In this document: one piece after another, positions 55,643 through 64,000 of the stretch
How the letters are laid out: each line of letters starts with the position of its first letter
How positions within the stretch are numbered: the first letter of the stretch is position 1
From: Bdellovibrio sp.
Lineage (GTDB): Bacteria > Bdellovibrionota > Bdellovibrionia > Bdellovibrionales > Bdellovibrionaceae
Length of the DNA stretch: 64,000 bases
Direction: 5' to 3'
NCBI GenBank assembly: GCA_014376435.1
Contig: JACMRL010000013.1
Coordinates: 107,256 to 171,255 of the forward strand
Notes under the pieces: model-generated
What the model was told of the DNA's origin: nothing
Database searches by the model: none
What the model saw: the letters and a program-made list of their open reading frames with translations, nothing else
Translations under genes and position numbers: made by a program

Positions 55643-56512
55643 TCAGTGATGAAAAAAAGTTATTCCTGAAAGTTTTTCGACCTCATTGAGTGTGGTTTTA
55701 TACTTTTCCCAATCACTGGTAGGACTGGCGGTGTTTAACACAACGGCTATTGGTAAGCATGGGCTGGTAATGGAAGGTTGAGATCCGTCCGGATTGGTAT
55801 TAGGCATAATGACCGCGATGGTCTCGGTATTAGGGCCAATATCAGCCGCAGATTGGTTGGTATCGACTAAGAAAATAACTTTAAATTCTTTTGATGGAAC
55901 TTGAATATCTTGATGCGGTCCTATTTTTCCAAAGTCTTGATCGTAAATAGGACCGGCAATGATGTAAGCTTTCTTGTGCTCAGTGTGCACAACGTTACGC
56001 ATATGCTGTTCAAGATGCTCCCAGATCATTCGGTTCAAGAAGGGAGTTTGCGGAACAATATTACTCATAACAAATGTCATTTTATTATTTTCTATTTTGT
56101 CGGAGCGATCTGCCGAAGGAGTTTGATGGCCGCGGTCAAAGCAGAAGCCAGCGTACTCACTGACTTCCACAGGTTTTTTTAGACCCTGAGTTGAAGATTT
56201 TAAATACTTTGCTAACTCAACATCCGCAGTAAATGCCGTAGATCTTCCTGATTTACCAATACTTTTATCTTCTAGTTTCCAAGCAACCCAGTTTGGATTT
56301 CGTAAGTCCTTATTATAGGAAATAATATATTGCGAACGAGAAATAATTATTTCAGAGCTATTCATTGCGGGCAGACTGTTCGTGTATAAGTTAGTATTGT
56401 TTTTTAGATCAACGGACCCTAAAACGATTTCAACGTTTGCTAGGGCAAAATTGTGAGTGACCAAGATTAAAAGAAGGACTGATAATCTAAAATTAAAAGT
56501 TGATTTTAACAT
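55643..56512 (-). CDS. Secreted DNA/RNA non-specific endonuclease (NUC1 family)
   Basis: 289 residues with signal peptide (1-24, LLLILVTHNFALA). The catalytic motif CFDRGHQTPSADRS contains DRGH (H129 general base), and the magnesium/asparagine helix is MSNIVPQTPFLNRMIWEHLE (N160, E168). This is the beta-beta-alpha-Me nuclease fold of Serratia nuclease. The exported enzyme is expected to degrade prey or environmental nucleic acid (inference). No inhibitor gene is adjacent. Confidence 0.92.
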   Translation of the reverse strand: MLKSTFNFRLSVLLLILVTHNFALANVEIVLGSVDLKNNTNLYTNSLPAMNSSEIIISRSQYIISYNKDLRNPNWVAWKLEDKSIGKSGRSTAFTADVELAKYLKSSTQGLKKPVEVSEYAGFCFDRGHQTPSADRSDKIENNKMTFVMSNIVPQTPFLNRMIWEHLEQHMRNVVHTEHKKAYIIAGPIYDQDFGKIGPHQDIQVPSKEFKVIFLVDTNQSAADIGPNTETIAVIMPNTNPDGSQPSITSPCLPIAVVLNTASPTSDWEKYKTTLNEVEKLSGITFFHH

Positions 56513-56846: not shown

Positions 56847-59327
56847 ATGCTTATTTCTATTATTTTGGTTCTTTTCCAGTCCGCATCCTTTGCCCAAACT
56901 GAAGCCGAAAAAGATATTGGCTATTTAAAAAATCGCCGCCAAGAAATGGTTATGTCACTGCCTAAGTACACGTCCGAAGAAAAGCACATCATCACAAGCC
57001 AGGCGATGATACTTCTTAAAGATCTTTATGTGAACCGTGCTTTGAAAGAGAAAGAGTTTCAGCAACGCCCTATTCCGCTGCTGGAAAGTATTTCAGAATT
57101 GGCGCCGCAGATGTCGGATTACGAATTTCACCTTCAGATGTCGCAGCTTTTTGTGAATCAGCGTGATGGCCATGTTGATTATTACCTACCGGCGCCGTTT
57201 GGGTGCTATGAAACGTATATTCCTTTAGATTTTACAACCGCGCGCGATTATATATCAAAAAAGCAAGTGGTGGCGATCAGCTCGATCGAAAAATCACAAC
57301 AGCTCTTAAAACTTATTCCGGAACTGAATGACTTGCAGGTTGGTGACGTGATTGAATTTTATGACGGCTTAAATCCATTTGAAGCCGCGCTCAGAACAAA
57401 AAGCTTCAACAGAGGTTCGAACAGTTCTGCCCAGATGCGATGGGGCTTAAGCTTATTAAATTTTAGAAATCATGCCCGACAAATATTGATTCCAGAAAAA
57501 GATTATGTCCAGCTGAACATTCGTCAGCGCTCAGGAAAAACCATCAATTTAATTATTCCTTGGCTTGTTGCACTTGATCACGAATGTGTTGATAAATCGG
57601 ATTCGAAAAATAAAGAAACTTCTGCTAAAACCTCAAACGGATTGAACAGCGGAATGGATGAAGATCAGCATCGAATGAACAAAAGGTTTCGACCCTATGA
57701 TAGAAAACGTGTCGTGCAACAACCCGGCAAAATCTGGAACGACACGGAAGTCTTGTCGGCAAATGCCGATCTTTCAAATCTCATCTCTACGGCAGAGCCC
57801 TCGATAAAATACAAAGTGATCCACAACGCGTCAGGCACCTTTGGTTACCTTTACATCGAAAAGTTCACAACGGATCAGCTTTCAGAGAAAAATTCTCGGC
57901 AACTGATCCGCGACTTACTAACGGGAGCTTTTTCGCAGACGGAAGGTCTGGTCCTAGATTTGCGCTCTAACCCGGGTGGAAATATTGATTACGCGGAAAG
58001 CCTGGTACAATTCTTCACAGCGAACAATGTAGAACCGAATGGCTTTCGACTTTTAACCACCGAATTAAATCAAAGTGTGCTGGAGGGTTTTGACGAATTC
58101 GACTTTTTAAAAGCGTGGAAGAAAGCTGTAGACCTTGGAAAATCAATGACCGAGGGCATCGGGATAACCTCCGCAAAATTTGCTAACTCTGACGGTCAGT
58201 TTTATTTTAAACCAGTTATCGTACTTAATAATGCGAAGTGTTTTTCAGCCTGTGACATGTTTTCAGCGGCTATGCAAGACAGTGGGGCGGCACTGATCTG
58301 GGGAGAAGACACGCGCACCGGTGGTGGTGGTGGCAACGTCATCAGACAAACGTATTTTCGTGGCGGCCACCAAAAAGAAAATCCCTTTGTTGAGCTTCCG
58401 CATGGTCAAGATATGCGAATTGCTTGGCGGCAAGCTGTACGCGCCGGAAAAAGCAAAGGCTTACTGATTGAGAATCGCGGTGTCGAGGCCGACGTTTTTG
58501 AAACCATTAATTTAGATGATATTATTCATTATGATCAGTTCTTGATGAATCGCCTTAGTCAAAGATTGAAATCAATGGGCCAAAAACAAAAAGGTTTTGC
58601 ACGGATCGTAAGCAATGAACGTATCACCTGGTTAACTAAACAAAGCTACGCGATACCCGTGCAGCTGGCGCAAACGTCTGAAATTCAAATCAAGGCGGAC
58701 GGAAAAATTCTAGGTACGCAAAATGTCAGTTCTGAAGGTCCGGAATTAAAACCTGTATTCATTAACTTAACTCCTTCAATGCAAACTAATTTAAAAAACT
58801 CGGGCTACCTTGAACTTGTTGGACTGTACCGCGGTAATAGGGTTTGGCGAAAAACAGTGGACTACCGAATTTTTTCTAACGTTTATTCAACGCTGCCACT
58901 TGATCTTAATTTCAATGCCGGTGCCGGTACGACACCATTGTATTTACTTTCAAGCGAAGCCCCTAGCGACGGCTGGCTCATTTTTAATAAAGCTTTAGTG
59001 GTGGGTGATGGCGACTTCTATCCTTCGGACCTGAAGGCAGAGGCGTCGCTTTTTGTGGATTTAAAAAATACGCCGCAGGCGCGCTTAAGTTTCGACGCAA
59101 AACTTTCCTCGGAAAAAGACTATGATTTATTTTCGGTCCTTATCATTGATCAAAATTCTCAGAAGACGGTGGTCGTAGGCCCCCTTTCAGGTGAATTCGC
59201 TTTTTCATCGTACGAAGTCGATCTTTCCAATTTTGCCGGACAAAAAATAGAGGTCCGCTTTGTCTTTGAAAGCGACAATGGCTTCAACTTGACGGGCCCG
59301 GAGTTATTTCGAATCCGATTGGAATAA
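56847..59327 (+). CDS. Secreted S41-family serine protease with C-terminal beta domain
   Basis: 826 residues, signal peptide (LISIILVLFQSASFAQ). The S41 core is at about 330-540: LVLDLRSNPGGNIDYAESL gives the substrate-binding motif. KCFSACDMFSAAM holds the predicted nucleophile Ser467, and EDTRTGGGGGNVI lies just downstream. The N-terminal 270 residues form an accessory domain (possible PDZ region with EFYDGLNP, not certain). The last 270 residues are beta-rich, resembling jelly-roll or Ig-type substrate-binding modules. A GCAGGAG ribosome binding site is five bases before the ATG. It is unusually large for C-terminal processing proteases. Confidence 0.85.
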   Translation: MLISIILVLFQSASFAQTEAEKDIGYLKNRRQEMVMSLPKYTSEEKHIITSQAMILLKDLYVNRALKEKEFQQRPIPLLESISELAPQMSDYEFHLQMSQLFVNQRDGHVDYYLPAPFGCYETYIPLDFTTARDYISKKQVVAISSIEKSQQLLKLIPELNDLQVGDVIEFYDGLNPFEAALRTKSFNRGSNSSAQMRWGLSLLNFRNHARQILIPEKDYVQLNIRQRSGKTINLIIPWLVALDHECVDKSDSKNKETSAKTSNGLNSGMDEDQHRMNKRFRPYDRKRVVQQPGKIWNDTEVLSANADLSNLISTAEPSIKYKVIHNASGTFGYLYIEKFTTDQLSEKNSRQLIRDLLTGAFSQTEGLVLDLRSNPGGNIDYAESLVQFFTANNVEPNGFRLLTTELNQSVLEGFDEFDFLKAWKKAVDLGKSMTEGIGITSAKFANSDGQFYFKPVIVLNNAKCFSACDMFSAAMQDSGAALIWGEDTRTGGGGGNVIRQTYFRGGHQKENPFVELPHGQDMRIAWRQAVRAGKSKGLLIENRGVEADVFETINLDDIIHYDQFLMNRLSQRLKSMGQKQKGFARIVSNERITWLTKQSYAIPVQLAQTSEIQIKADGKILGTQNVSSEGPELKPVFINLTPSMQTNLKNSGYLELVGLYRGNRVWRKTVDYRIFSNVYSTLPLDLNFNAGAGTTPLYLLSSEAPSDGWLIFNKALVVGDGDFYPSDLKAEASLFVDLKNTPQARLSFDAKLSSEKDYDLFSVLIIDQNSQKTVVVGPLSGEFAFSSYEVDLSNFAGQKIEVRFVFESDNGFNLTGPELFRIRLE

Positions 59328-59379: not shown

Positions 59380-60687
59380 TCATCGCAATCCATATTCGTT
59401 GTGACGAACCTCGTAGACTAAGTTTGTTTTAGCAATGTTTTGAATAACGGCGCTAAAAATCTCTCGATTTATGTTATCTAAGTTTGCGTCCCATTCATCA
59501 AATAAGAAAACTCGATCTTTAGAATTTTCAGCTTCGATATGTTTTAGGATGGCCATCGCTTTTTGGCCTGTCGACATTTCGTCAGATATTTGTTCAAAGA
59601 AAATTTCCATATTTGCAGGCACATAAACGGCTTGATCGCCAAGTTGTTGTTTTTTAATTTTTAGCCAAGTCGATTTACCGGCACCATTCGGACCGGTTAC
59701 CAATGTTCGTCCGTTTGAATGAATAAATTGAAGGTGTTCTTGTTTCATTCGCTGATCAAGAGTTTGCTTTTCTGGCGTCTGCATACTCGAAAAGAATCCA
59801 TTTAAAAGAGCTGACATCGAGTGATAATGTAAACCCAGTGTTCCCATCACCTCGATGTGTTGAATAATTTGAACCTGGCGATGTAACGTTGCAATCAAAG
59901 GAAATAAAACAACGGGATTTTGTAAACCCTGAATGATTAGATAAATCAATAACCCCATCACGGGCACCATGGTTACAAGAGTAATCAGTAGTTGAACGCT
60001 TTCTGTTTTGCTTCGATTTTTTAAAACGCGTGAGCTTAGTTCGCTAAAACAGTCCCCCTCTAGTTTATAAAGACTCTCTATATTCATTTGGTTACCAATC
60101 AATAATGTGTTCCAGGACTTAGACAGAATACTTGAATGAGCAACTCGGCTAGCCTGAGTTGCTGCACTCCACATCCCTAAAGGTTTAGCGAATACATAAG
60201 CAAAGAATCCGTAGATTGCAAAACTTCCGGTGTAAGCTCCAATAAAAGATTTATCTAAGGTTGCGCCAATCACCGCAATATTAAAAACTACGTTAAGAGC
60301 CGTAGTTAATAAATCGTTCCAGTAGAATGTAACTTGATCAATTACGTGAAATGACTCTCGCTGCATAAAACCAAATTTTTCATTTTGAGCAACAGAGTTC
60401 CCCAAAAGATCGATGCGTCCTTGATAATTTTTACGAAACAGGCCCAGGTATTTTTTCTGTATGGATAAAACCCATTTGTCTTGCAAATACTTTTGTAAAG
60501 AAACAGGAAAATAAACCAGTGTTAAACAGGACAAAAATCCAAATAGCTGTATTAAGAAACCACGCTGTTCATGTTGGGATGAGGTTAACTTAATTAGAAA
60601 ATAAGTTGAACCTGCGACCATTGCTTGCTGAATAACTATAACAAGTGACAAAAAGAAAAACTGTTTTGTCTTGATAAAAAATTTCAT
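59380..60687 (-). CDS. ABC transporter, cyclic-peptide-exporter type (SyrD/PvdE/YojI-like)
   Basis: 435 residues: an N-terminal six-helix exporter domain (about 10-270), then a fused ATP-binding domain. Walker A GPNGAGKST (332-340), ABC signature as STGQKAMAIL (372-381), Walker B VFLFDEWDANLD (393-404), H-loop His429 in YEVRHNEY. The FDEW-x-A and STGQ features are those of the cyclic peptide transporter family (SyrD, PvdE, microcin-exporting YojI). The domain is short: its helical subdomain is compact. It is downstream of the 51-codon peptide gene on the same strand and separated from it by a hairpin. Expected to export the mature peptide. Confidence 0.8.
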   Translation of the reverse strand: MKFFIKTKQFFFLSLVIVIQQAMVAGSTYFLIKLTSSQHEQRGFLIQLFGFLSCLTLVYFPVSLQKYLQDKWVLSIQKKYLGLFRKNYQGRIDLLGNSVAQNEKFGFMQRESFHVIDQVTFYWNDLLTTALNVVFNIAVIGATLDKSFIGAYTGSFAIYGFFAYVFAKPLGMWSAATQASRVAHSSILSKSWNTLLIGNQMNIESLYKLEGDCFSELSSRVLKNRSKTESVQLLITLVTMVPVMGLLIYLIIQGLQNPVVLFPLIATLHRQVQIIQHIEVMGTLGLHYHSMSALLNGFFSSMQTPEKQTLDQRMKQEHLQFIHSNGRTLVTGPNGAGKSTWLKIKKQQLGDQAVYVPANMEIFFEQISDEMSTGQKAMAILKHIEAENSKDRVFLFDEWDANLDNINREIFSAVIQNIAKTNLVYEVRHNEYGLR

Positions 60688-60722
60688 GACTTTCTCCGGT
60701 TAATTTAAACAAATAATAAAAC

Positions 60723-60746
60723 AAGGGCCCGGGTGGGTGGGCCCTT
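60723..60746 (-). terminator. Hairpin between the candidate precursor gene and the exporter gene
   Basis: On the minus strand AAGGGCCC-ACCCACCC-GGGCCCTT, an 8-bp G+C-rich stem, followed by TGTTTTATTATT. It lies 15 bp after the small gene's stop and 36 bp before the exporter's start. A partial terminator here would make more precursor than exporter, the usual layout of ribosomal peptide loci. Confidence 0.75.
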
Positions 60747-60760
60747 TAAACAATACTTTC

Positions 60761-60916
60761 CTAAACTTCTTCATCCAGTTCTTTAAGTAAGGCTTCAATG
60801 TCGACCGGGATCACATTAAGTAATCGTCTGACTACGCTTGGGCCTAAGTCGCTTTGAATATAAAGATCAACTTCCTCTTCGTTTGTGATAATTTCTGTTT
60901 CGAAACTGTTTTTCAT
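60761..60916 (-). CDS. Candidate RiPP precursor peptide, 51 residues
   Basis: MKNSFETEIITNEEEVDLYI then QSDLGPSVVRRLLNVIPVDI and a tail EALLKELDEEV. I use ATG 60916 because AAGGAGA sits 4-5 bases upstream; an in-frame upstream ATG at 60952 would prefix a Cys-rich MESCSCTNQGEC. The peptide is acidic and helical, with no cysteines in the chosen form. It lies between the exporter gene (downstream, same strand) and the divergent methyltransferase operon. Precursor status is inferred from size, position and the hairpin after it; no core is identifiable. A regulatory or docking protein remains possible. Confidence 0.6.
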   Translation of the reverse strand: MKNSFETEIITNEEEVDLYIQSDLGPSVVRRLLNVIPVDIEALLKELDEEV

Positions 60917-61080
60917 ACATTCTCCTTGGTTGGTACATGAACACGATTCCAAATTCGGTGCCGATTGCTGCCAGCTTTAAAACCTTGTAATTTCGATTAC
61001 AGAAAAATCTTGTCCGAAATCTAAGAATATTTTCTTAATTCCCGGAATTTTTTAAGAAGAAAAGATGCTAGGACGATTTT

Positions 61081-61167
61081 ATGGCCTATGCATCTGGTAC
61101 TCAGATTGAAATAAAGGTTTCCGTAGAGACTGTTATTAAAAATCGAACTAATCAGGGGACGGAATGA
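61081..61167 (+). CDS. 28-codon upstream ORF coupled to the methyltransferase gene
   Basis: MAYASGTQIEIKVSVETVIK then NRTNQGTE. AGGA at 61070-61073 is seven bases before the ATG, and its TGA overlaps the methyltransferase ATG (ATGA), giving translational coupling. It could be a second peptide substrate, a leader peptide or just a coupling frame. No homology is known to me. The hydrophobic-alternating middle (IEIKVSVETVI) would suit a beta-strand core. Confidence 0.4.
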   Translation: MAYASGTQIEIKVSVETVIKNRTNQGTE

Positions 61168-61967
61168 AAAAATTATCAATAGTTGGTGTTGGTACCAAAA
61201 GGTTTTCGCAAATCACATTAGCCGCATTGGCGCAAATTCAAGCAAGCCAAGCAATTTGTTACATTGAAACAGAAGAAGCAACTATAAAAAAATATGTGCC
61301 GGGTGAGCACCACTTAGTGAACCTAGATCCTTTTTATCAGAGCAATCAAACAGATATCGAGAACTATAAACAGATGATGAAAGCGATTATCAAAACGTTG
61401 CAATCATATGAGCAAGTTTGCTTTATCGTTGCGGGTCATCCGCGGTTAGGTGTTTTTTTGACCCGTGCTTTAGAAGCCTGGGGTAATAAAAATCAAGTGC
61501 AAGTAGAAGTATTTGAGGGTATTTCAAGTTTTGACGTGATGGCAAACGTGCTAAAGCTCGATATTCTTGAAAATGGAACAAGCCTTATCGATATTAATCG
61601 CGCCCTTCTATACAACCAAACGATCAATACTCAATGCGATCATTTCTTTTATCATGTGTGTTCGGTTGCAAATCCAATCGCAGATTTTCGCGGTTTCTTC
61701 GGTGGAAACCGGTTGGATTTACTCAAAGAGTATCTTTTAAAATACTACCCTAAAAATCATCCCATTGCTTTAGTGAAGGCTGCAAATTCAATCGACGAAG
61801 CATCTATGATCCTTAATTATACTGTCGAACAGGTAGATCAGTTAAATAAAGAAATTAATTTTTCAACAACACTATACATACCAGCACTCAAAAATCATTC
61901 GATTGATTTGAGTATATTGAAGATAATACAACAGCAAGCAGGCAGTCATGAAAATCTTAGCTTATAA
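61164..61967 (+). CDS. TP-methylase-fold SAM methyltransferase, borosin-type (OphM/SonM-like)
   Basis: 267 residues. N-terminus KLSIVGVGTKRFSQITLAAL is the SAM-dependent tetrapyrrole-methylase-like motif GVG.., followed by a segment ending LVNLDPFYQSN, then IENYKQMMKAIIKT. AGHPRLGVF (residues 90-98) corresponds to YGHPGVF in borosin enzymes; EGISSFD to PGVSAED. The VANPIADFRGF and TTLYIPAL segments also align. Order and spacing match the split-borosin alpha-N-methyltransferase SonM and the OphMA methyltransferase domain as I remember them. Y68 is conserved, but the catalytic Arg four positions before that Tyr and the Tyr of YGHPG are replaced (by Asp and Ala). Function is inferred: backbone N-methylation of a separate peptide. 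First gene of a three-gene overlapping operon; AGGGGA precedes the ATG. Confidence 0.75.
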   Translation: MKKLSIVGVGTKRFSQITLAALAQIQASQAICYIETEEATIKKYVPGEHHLVNLDPFYQSNQTDIENYKQMMKAIIKTLQSYEQVCFIVAGHPRLGVFLTRALEAWGNKNQVQVEVFEGISSFDVMANVLKLDILENGTSLIDINRALLYNQTINTQCDHFFYHVCSVANPIADFRGFFGGNRLDLLKEYLLKYYPKNHPIALVKAANSIDEASMILNYTVEQVDQLNKEINFSTTLYIPALKNHSIDLSILKIIQQQAGSHENLSL

Positions 61968-62490
61968 CTATCCGTACACTTATTTTGTAATCGAAAATTT
62001 TTTACCAGTTGAGGAATATCAATCTATCAAAACAAGTGCTCCGCAATCAGTTAATTGGGAATTAAGCTCGCAGCAGCCTGGCCAATACGGGATGATTTCT
62101 AACCACCAAATCATTCGCAAAATGGCTGGTAAAGAAATGCGAAATTTTTTAAGCAAATTAACCGGTGTAAAAGTTGAAAGACACAAAAACTCAATTCCGC
62201 AGTTACGTCGCACCATTGGTGCTACCGACGGCGTTGATTGCCACACCGATTTTAAATGTGGCTTTAGCGTTGGCGTTTTTCTGCATATGACAACATGGAT
62301 TCCAGAGATGGGTGGTGAGCTCAAAATTTGGAGTAAATATGATCATGCTTTTCAACTGGAAAATATGATTCAACCCAAGGCTAATACTTTAGTGGTGATG
62401 GTTTTCTCAGAAAAATCTTTTCATAGCGTAGCTCCAGTCGTGAAAGGTGTTGAACGTACAACTCTGTTAACTGAATGGAACTTTGTTTGA
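61948..62490 (+). CDS. 2-oxoglutarate/Fe(II)-dependent oxygenase
   Basis: 180 residues, single-domain jelly-roll oxygenase. The iron facial triad is H99-x-D101 in GVDCHTDFK and H159 in SEKSFHSV. The 2-oxoglutarate-binding Arg is R170 in GVERTTLL. N-terminal ENFLPVEEY and GGELKIWS are typical of prolyl-hydroxylase-like members. It overlaps the methyltransferase by 20 bases and is in turn overlapped by the protease gene. In this setting a peptide side-chain hydroxylation or desaturation is the natural reading (inference). Confidence 0.88.
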   Translation: MKILAYNYPYTYFVIENFLPVEEYQSIKTSAPQSVNWELSSQQPGQYGMISNHQIIRKMAGKEMRNFLSKLTGVKVERHKNSIPQLRRTIGATDGVDCHTDFKCGFSVGVFLHMTTWIPEMGGELKIWSKYDHAFQLENMIQPKANTLVVMVFSEKSFHSVAPVVKGVERTTLLTEWNFV

Positions 62491-63257
62491 TTTATTTTAC
62501 AACAAATCTCATCAATCAAATGTATCAGAAAACTGATTATGCGCCTAAGCGGTGGCTTCAAAATAATTTAAACAAAATCGAAAAAGATATACTTTTTTAT
62601 CGAGAACAAATTCGTATTTCGCTGATTCAATCAGAATGGAAGATGCCGATGCAGGCAGAGCTTGAAGTTCTATTGCCTCAGTTTATCAGCGCGAACAGAA
62701 AACCTTCTTCGGTTCCAACTCTAAAGCCGCCTACTTTTTTTAAACGAAAATTAGAAAATAGTCTTAAAGTATATTTGAACGAAATATTAAAAAACCACTC
62801 GCGAAAGCATGATATGGCTATTATTCTTGAAAGAGCCTGTCTTGATTTACAAACGCCAGAATTTTACACTCTACCGCTTACAACCGGGTATATAATTTAT
62901 GGGAACGGGGAGCCTACATTCGGAAATCTACTTTGCTTAGCGCACGAGTTAGGCCACGCCCTGTACGAGCTAGATTTTCCTGGCGATGAGCTTGGCTCTG
63001 AAGTGTCGGCTTTTCAAGTAGAAGATCATGTCGCGCAATTGCTGCTGAAGGATTTAAATGATAATGCCGAATGGGCGCAATATAAATTTGAACAAGATCA
63101 GCTAAATTATTTTCTGTGTCTTAATGAATGCAAAGAATTTGAAACTGGAATTTCGAAAACGCTTCAGCATCATCTATTTTTTCGAGAATCATTGGTTACT
63201 TGCTGGGGCTATCAATGCATTAATGCGTGGGCGTCTGTAAAAAGACTGAATACCTAG
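62475..63257 (+). CDS. HExxH metallopeptidase, M3/oligopeptidase-like short form
   Basis: 260 residues. A mostly helical N-terminus precedes the zinc motif LCLAHELGHALYELD (H157, E158, H161), and a following GSEVSAFQVED aligns with the third-ligand region (E176) of M3 enzymes such as PepF. M3 peptidases are 550-700 residues, so this is a minimal form or an outlier. No signal peptide, so it acts in the cytoplasm. It overlaps the oxygenase by 16 bases. ATG 62520 is an alternative start. Leader-peptide removal is the expected role here (inference). Confidence 0.72.
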   Translation: MELCLIYFTTNLINQMYQKTDYAPKRWLQNNLNKIEKDILFYREQIRISLIQSEWKMPMQAELEVLLPQFISANRKPSSVPTLKPPTFFKRKLENSLKVYLNEILKNHSRKHDMAIILERACLDLQTPEFYTLPLTTGYIIYGNGEPTFGNLLCLAHELGHALYELDFPGDELGSEVSAFQVEDHVAQLLLKDLNDNAEWAQYKFEQDQLNYFLCLNECKEFETGISKTLQHHLFFRESLVTCWGYQCINAWASVKRLNT

Positions 63258-63343: not shown

Positions 63344-63636
63344 TTAAAATTTAACGGCGTAATCCATAACAGAAATTAAAAAATCATCCGATTGAACTTC
63401 TTCAGAAGTAGCTACCGTAATATCTATCTTTTGTTCGGGAATTTTTTCGAATGATTGTTTTTTGGTCAGCGATAGAAGATTTTTTGAGGCTGAAACCAAC
63501 ACGAGTAAGTCAATATCGCCTCCTTTTTTATATCGTCGACACGGCTACCAAATAAATATAATTCGTAGGATTGATCAGCCAACAATGCGGAAAAAGCAAA
63601 CTTAATGGCCGATACTTCTTTGTAACTAAGCCTCAT
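63344..63636 (-). pseudogene. Frameshifted MNT-type nucleotidyltransferase (antitoxin-like)
   Basis: Minus strand ATG 63636 gives MRLSYKEVSAIKFAFSALLA, then ELYLFGSRVDDIKK. The pol-beta motif GSR.x-GGDIDLLV continues only after one base is gained: the A-run after GATAT holds six A (63524-63529 as T) where seven would keep the frame GGC GAT ATT GAC TTA. The downstream frame encodes DITVATSEEVQSDDFLIS and ends at TAA 63344. Such proteins pair with HEPN toxins. Total 97.7 codons confirms the shift. A sequencing error or slippage on the A-run is an alternative. Confidence 0.72.
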
Positions 63637-63698: not shown

Positions 63699-64000
63699 TC
63701 ATGCGGCGTTAGCCAGTTGTTCACATTGAATCGGTGTCACGAACTCAATACTTGAGTGCAATCTTTCGCGATTATAAAAAACTTCGATGTATTCAAAAAT
63801 CTTTTTTGTGGCATCCGCTCTAGTTTCGAACTTCGTTTGATAAACTAACTCGACCTTTAACGTTCTGAAAAAACTTTCAGCAAAAGGGTTGTGGTAGCGG
63901 TTGCCCTTACGTGACATGCTGGGAATTATTTTTTCTTCGTGCAGTTTTCGTCGAAAACTTCCCGCCGCAAACTGCGCGCCGGGATCCGAATGGATAATCA
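63699..64000 (-). CDS. IS3-family transposase (OrfB), C-terminal part
   Basis: Minus-strand frame open to the right edge. From the edge it reads HSDPGAQFAAGSFRRKL and ends PIQCEQLANAA. The DDE core is represented by HSD (second Asp) and AESFF (Glu) in MSRKGNRYHNPFAESFFRTL. Typical IS3 sequence also includes YQTKFETRADATKKIFEYIE and FYNRERLHSSIEFVTP. The N-terminus with the first Asp is outside the window. Confidence 0.93.
   Translation of the reverse strand, partial: IIHSDPGAQFAAGSFRRKLHEEKIIPSMSRKGNRYHNPFAESFFRTLKVELVYQTKFETRADATKKIFEYIEVFYNRERLHSSIEFVTPIQCEQLANAA

Follow-up and report, generated by a model that had tools for sequence, protein, structure and literature searches.

Borosin pathways have been described as the sole known pathways to ribosomally synthesized and post-translationally modified peptides (RiPPs) that methylate the peptide backbone, according to a study of SonM, the methyltransferase of a type IV split borosin from Shewanella oneidensis (PMC8429565). 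The same study reports that the SonM variant R67A retains only trace activity and that R67 links the core, the clamp and Y71. Here, we describe a gene cluster of a Bdellovibrio sp. (assembly GCA_014376435.1, 2.76 Mb) in a stretch of 64,000 nucleotides, called the window, which forms the end of a 171-kb contig (JACMRL010000013.1, positions 107,256 to 171,255). A small conserved peptide gene lies there beside tailoring enzymes and an exporter, the hallmark of a RiPP cluster. The methyltransferase belongs to a clade, termed D-type, that is related to borosins and carries aspartate at the position of their active-site arginine. We consider it probable that this is a RiPP cluster whose peptide is methylated, hydroxylated, trimmed and exported. 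Published comparisons were drawn from PMC8429565, PMC11395268 and PMC12636437.

A borosin-related methyltransferase with a changed active site

The fungal borosin enzymes OphMA, dbOphMA and MroMA were the best matches of the methyltransferase, both with the single sequence (9e-16) and with a profile (2.3e-28), and the top 32 rows of a fold search were all borosin entries. In a phylogenetic tree, the D-type rows grouped with R-type (borosin) rows, and 11 other TP methylases lay apart (support 100/99). Fold and tree both place the window enzyme in the borosin branch of the TP methylases. The tree, which carries a long-branch warning and draws on a borosin set without the proven borosin types V-X, kept 81 of 103 aligned rows; the 22 dropped were near-duplicate or thinned rows (7 family, 9 borosin by name) and six outgroup rows, five of them badly aligned and one, out_L077, that turned out to be R-type and borosin-like. 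The R-type rows did not form one clade. Two of them, L038 and P0045, branched off outside the pairing formed by the other 21 R-type rows and the 47 D-type rows (96/75, 94/82), so arginine is probably the ancestral state at position 64. L038 comes from a cyanobacterial genome and P0045 is listed as a Priestia aryabhattai plasmid protein; neither groups with the main borosins or with the D-type clade.

The enzyme might instead act on a small molecule, as YabN- or cobalamin-type enzymes do, with the small gene encoding an unrelated protein. In favour of this, its Pfam family is named TP_methylase, and NCBIfam matched it to YabN (75.9 bits against a cut-off of 525) and to cobalamin enzymes. All the NCBIfam matches lie far below cut-off, however, and fold, profile and tree fall on the borosin side. 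Moreover, a motif peptide accompanies the enzyme across phyla, and its tandem copies are under purifying selection (see below). We regard a small-molecule substrate as highly improbable. On profile scores, fold and tree, we also reject a cobalamin or diphthine-type enzyme; clustering with such enzymes was the outcome that a preliminary description of this DNA had named as fatal to its borosin interpretation.

The active site of the D-type enzymes differs systematically from that of borosins. Position 64, equivalent by sequence alignment to OphMA R72 and SonM R67, is Asp in the window enzyme and in 54 of the 58 family rows, and Arg in all 28 borosin rows. Among the four family rows with Arg (P0029, P0030, P0044 and P0045), three fall among borosins in the tree and P0045 outside. 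The 54 family rows with Asp at position 64 carry Arg at position 146, where 25 of the 28 borosin rows have Asp; the two positions thus change jointly in 54/54 D-type rows. At position 90 (SonM Y93), the window enzyme has Ala and the 54 D-type rows have A, N, P, Q or G; Tyr occupies it in 27 of the 28 borosin rows, the lone exception being chain 5n0s, a Y98A mutant. At position 164, 45 family rows carry H, 8 carry D and 5 carry Q; the borosin rows uniformly have Q. Tyr 68 (SonM Y71) is kept in 58/58 family and 28/28 borosin rows. Judged by sequence, the D-type clade is kin to borosins without a defining borosin feature, and we do not class it as borosin because the active-site arginine position is Asp. 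The fold and GHP signature bear out the borosin-type motifs claimed in the preliminary description; the active-site arginine and one of the tyrosines do not. Its borosin assignment is likewise supported as kinship and not as strict identity, given the replaced arginine and a peptide in which no borosin binding domain was found.

A conserved motif peptide beside the methyltransferase

The comparison covered the DNA of 17 D-type loci, namely the window, L003 (with its extension L081), L004-L014, L029, L030, L032 and L033. In 15 of these, a small frame close to the methyltransferase gene contains the motif R-x-L-x-x-[VIL]-P, which takes a more relaxed form in L014, L029 and L030. The two exceptions are L006, which is cut ~170 bases upstream of its methyltransferase, and L033, a fragment. 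Loss of the small gene from relatives that keep the operon, which had been put forward as a reason to abandon the earlier reading, was thus not seen. The motif R and P are invariant in nine aligned peptides.

Leave-one-out profiles, made from segments chosen by eye, were tested on 13 loci, with L012 and L013 excluded for each other. Scored with the profile from other loci only, the window peptide ranked first among 1829 six-frame open frames (22.3 bits, E 1.1e-5), the runner-up reaching 9.3 bits, and across the test set the neighbour peptide topped all six-frame open frames in 12 of 13 loci. The best peptide-profile match in 24 borosin-type loci scored 8.4 bits. A profile search of 309 genomes of the phylum returned ten matches. 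Four were strong (<=1.5e-15) and correspond to the four methyltransferase-bearing genomes, all of which are in the model. The other six, considered as free-standing peptide copies, were weak (3.5e-5 to 0.009); the frames of five span 472-1087 aa, that of the sixth has 38 aa and contains a stop, and all six were taken as chance.

Three copies of the motif occur in the peptides of an Alteromonadales metagenome-assembled genome (L012), Sphingomonas (L013) and Serratia plasmids (L029, L030). The ratio of nonsynonymous to synonymous differences (pN/pS) between tandem copies was 0.30 in Alteromonadales, 0.19 in Sphingomonas and 0.008 in Serratia, where the three 19-residue copies of L029 are identical as protein and differ at >90% of synonymous sites. 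These mostly synonymous changes show that the peptide is under purifying selection, and the conserved segment is likely the core. The triple-core peptide genes lie on two conjugative Serratia plasmids (L029 7573-7806 and L030 7594-7806). In L030 the methyltransferase is disrupted and transposase genes adjoin it. A plasmid scan with the triple-core peptide as query gave no match.

Proposed pathway and its chemistry

In the pathway that we infer, all three enzymes probably act on the 51-residue peptide: the borosin-related methyltransferase would methylate the R-x-L-x-x-[VIL]-P segment, the 2-oxoglutarate (2OG) oxygenase would hydroxylate the peptide, the M3-like peptidase would trim it and the ATP-binding cassette (ABC) protein would export the product, presumably in this order.

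Several points weigh against this reading. In addition to the Asp at position 64, the peptide is paired with the methyltransferase by neighbourhood, and in the window the two genes are divergent. Searches of Pfam and NCBIfam at E 1 matched no borosin binding domain in the window peptide, and comparison with a split-borosin-type neighbour peptide of S. meliloti revealed no similarity (E 3.2). L014 failed the leave-one-out test (rank 147), with another frame lying between its peptide and the methyltransferase. The weakest true matches scored 9.6 (L013), 10.0 (L029) and 12.0 bits (L012), and elsewhere in the test set frames scored 10.5, 9.8 and 9.3 bits by chance. Because chance frames reach 10.5 bits, these three peptides are supported more by their tandem arrangement than by score.

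Our best single guess for the methylated atom, by analogy, is the backbone amide nitrogen, since methylation occurs there in this fold and in the closest enzymes of known function; the replacement of Arg by Asp leaves room for another. A narrower form of the proposed pathway is a split borosin in chemistry, in which backbone alpha-N-methyl groups are installed as by SonM and R64D and D146R compensate for each other. The shared fold, the borosin best matches, the retained Tyr 68 and the joint change of positions 64 and 146 all fit this form, but the trace activity of SonM R67A and the ties of R67 to core, clamp and Y71 (PMC8429565) argue against it, as do the missing tyrosine at the SonM Y93 position in 54/54 D-type rows and the negative searches for a borosin binding domain. 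We place it somewhat short of an even chance. With about the same probability, the D-type systems may constitute a separate RiPP class, in which a borosin-derived fold has lost the machinery of backbone N-methylation and methylates another site of the R-x-L-x-x-[VIL]-P core, with lineage-specific partners (2OG oxygenase, a methyltransferase like protein arginine methyltransferases (PRMT-like), Asp/Asn hydroxylase or radical S-adenosylmethionine (SAM) protein) decorating it further.

Oxygenase, HExxH protein and exporter

Residues H99, D101 and H159 of the oxygenase are invariant in five relatives. Its nearest solved relative is OGFOD1 (4.8e-6) and its nearest curated family is YhhC-type (NF041706, 3.9e-8), to which its relatives in L007, L008 and L081 are also nearest.

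The HExxH protein had no Pfam or NCBIfam match at E 1 and no PDB sequence match at E 0.1 in a profile search. Its predicted structure matches M3 and M2 peptidases, and we predict a small M3-like peptidase. Four of its six non-self homologues lie on contigs equal in size to contigs with a methyltransferase homologue, and its single occurrence in 142 genomes of the class is beside the methyltransferase in G019, a genome from another genus of the family. It could alternatively be a 2OG-dependent HEXXH hydroxylase or oxidative cleavage enzyme: PMC12636437 describes hydroxylation and oxidative cleavage of the peptide by the HEXXH enzymes PflC and PosC of RiPP clusters, and the related G019 cluster encodes a TIGR04267-like protein (5.8e-8, 32.9 bits, below the cut-off of 40). 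However, the NCBIfam search of the window protein covered TIGR04267 without a match, the structural matches are to peptidases, and the TIGR04267-like protein of G019 has its own gene, next to that of the M3-like protein. This alternative appears unlikely, and a peptidase remains our prediction. The TIGR04267-like HExxH gene of G019 is accompanied by a second 2OG oxygenase gene, both following the five-gene set (L081 10766-11955).

The ABC protein has a Walker A motif (GPNGAGKS) and a DEWDANL motif, and members of its family (24-27% identity) occur beside the methyltransferase in 8 of 16 other loci. Weak solved matches of the membrane part are BmrA/MsbA/Atm1-type exporters. A SyrD-type exporter is not supported, since neither the window protein nor four relatives matched the SyrD-type cyclic-peptide transporter model of NCBIfam at E 1e-3.

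Organization of the locus

The six features of the locus are listed in Table 1.

Table 1. Features of the cluster, with positions in the window
Feature	Position	Strand	Description
ABC protein	59380-60687	-	435 aa; membrane part and short nucleotide-binding part; predicted exporter of the product
Terminator-like hairpin	60723-60746	-	Between peptide gene and ABC gene
Precursor peptide gene	60761-60916	-	51 aa, acidic; segment R31-x-L-x-x-I-P37
TP-methylase-fold SAM methyltransferase, D-type clade	61164-61967	+	267 aa; PF00590, 1.5e-15
2OG-Fe(II) oxygenase	61948-62490	+	180 aa; PF13640, 1.1e-8; predicted peptide hydroxylase
HExxH protein	62475-63257	+	260 aa; predicted small M3-like peptidase

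The ABC and peptide genes share one strand, and the three enzyme genes diverge from them, overlapping by 20 bases (methyltransferase/oxygenase) and 16 bases (oxygenase/HExxH). The ATG of the peptide gene is preceded by AAGGAG. The hairpin comprises 8 pairs, 6 of them G-C, followed by a T-rich tail (z -2.5; equal folding in 1 of 200 shuffles). Much of the preliminary description agrees with this layout, including the small acidic peptide gene, the two overlaps, the 2OG/Fe(II) oxygenase and an M3-type guess for the HExxH peptidase, whose predicted structure also resembles M2. The five-gene neighbourhood that it proposed to look for recurs in another genus. It had called the exporter SyrD/PvdE/YojI-type; the ABC protein is present on the minus strand as described, and the SyrD-type label lacks a curated-model match.

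An integrase core fragment (PF13333, 2e-15; 63699-63998, minus strand), which we take to be IS3-type, lies ~440 bases downstream of the cluster and runs off the contig end. A GSRVDD stretch occurs in two short frames (63344-63636, minus strand), which are possibly the remnant of a minimal nucleotidyltransferase gene. On the other side, a large S41-family peptidase with an InhA-like MAM domain (56847-59327, plus strand) adjoins the cluster, and a DNA/RNA non-specific endonuclease with an N-terminal signal-like stretch is encoded at 55643-56512 (minus strand; PF01223, 3.6e-43).

Related loci and distribution

The full five-gene set recurs in one run in G019 (L003/L081). A Nostoc genome (L007) and a deltaproteobacterial metagenome-assembled genome (L008) combine peptide, borosin-related methyltransferase, transporter, an additional methyltransferase, oxygenase and M3-like protein; the L007 transporter belongs to the major facilitator superfamily (MFS) by Pfam, and the additional methyltransferase of L008 is PRMT-like (PDB matches, 8.2e-9). 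Peptide, methyltransferase and same-family ABC protein occur together in L004, L005, L009, L010, L011 and L032, the last of which is cut, and L006 has the methyltransferase and the ABC protein. A small radical-SAM-like gene then follows in the ABC-type loci, with a Pfam match in L010 (3.8e-9) and weak NCBIfam matches in L004, L005, L009 and L011; that of L006 had no NCBIfam match. An Asp/Asn beta-hydroxylase is present in L012 (1.2e-22) and L013 (4.1e-23), the latter with a PRMT-like protein (4.2e-8), and Serratia L029 encodes an HExxH protein, a 2OG oxygenase and an MFS-like protein. These partner enzymes may target the two invariant motif residues, Arg and Pro.

D-type enzymes are thinly spread over Bdellovibrionota, Chlamydiota, Cyanobacteria, Pseudomonadota and Bacteroidota. 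Counting the starting genome each time, the methyltransferase was found in 3 of 59 relatives, 4 of 368 genomes of the phylum, 4 of 151 genomes of the phylum of G368 (one a fragment and two already known), 1 of 249 genomes in a further search and, at E 1e-40, 1 of 199 and 1 of 194 genomes in two others. In the order of the Nostoc genome, 22 of 291 genomes matched, 21 of them weakly (E 6.6e-26 to 9.6e-21) through 24 sequences that are all R-type. The gene was absent from all 13 other genomes of the genus searched, and scans of genome contigs with the single sequence and of viral contigs gave no match. The sparse scatter over several phyla, the absence from these 13 genomes, the nearby integrase fragment and the conjugative Serratia plasmids suggest horizontal spread of D-type clusters. 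Base composition does not mark the cluster as a foreign island (G+C 0.36-0.40 vs 0.36-0.44 in the preceding 9 kb).

Comparison with known systems

With arginine replaced by aspartate and the pocket changed systematically, the D-type clade represents a natural experiment on backbone methylation: either backbone methylation needs less than supposed, or the borosin fold performs other peptide chemistry. Since the clusters are tiny, the peptides short and some substrates naturally triple-core, the question is testable by two-gene co-expression. We found no such cluster in the open-access literature searched, which did not include one main split-borosin-type paper, and nothing there on YhhC with cyclophane.

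YhhC-type RiPP oxygenases (NF041706) form the nearest curated family of the window oxygenase, which is not a member (33 bits vs a cut-off of 150). M3 oligoendopeptidase F and Pz peptidase have ~560 residues, compared with 260 in the HExxH protein. The fungal borosins OphMA, dbOphMA and MroMA, closest to the window methyltransferase, combine enzyme and core in one protein, whereas the window has separate genes, and the positions of their R72 and Y98 are altered. SonM/SonA (PMC8429565) has a five-helix binding domain, whereas sequence searches found none in the window peptide, and the window methyltransferase carries Asp at the R67 position and a non-Tyr residue at that of Y93. Compared with SonM/SonA, the window cluster adds an oxygenase, an M3-like protein and an exporter.

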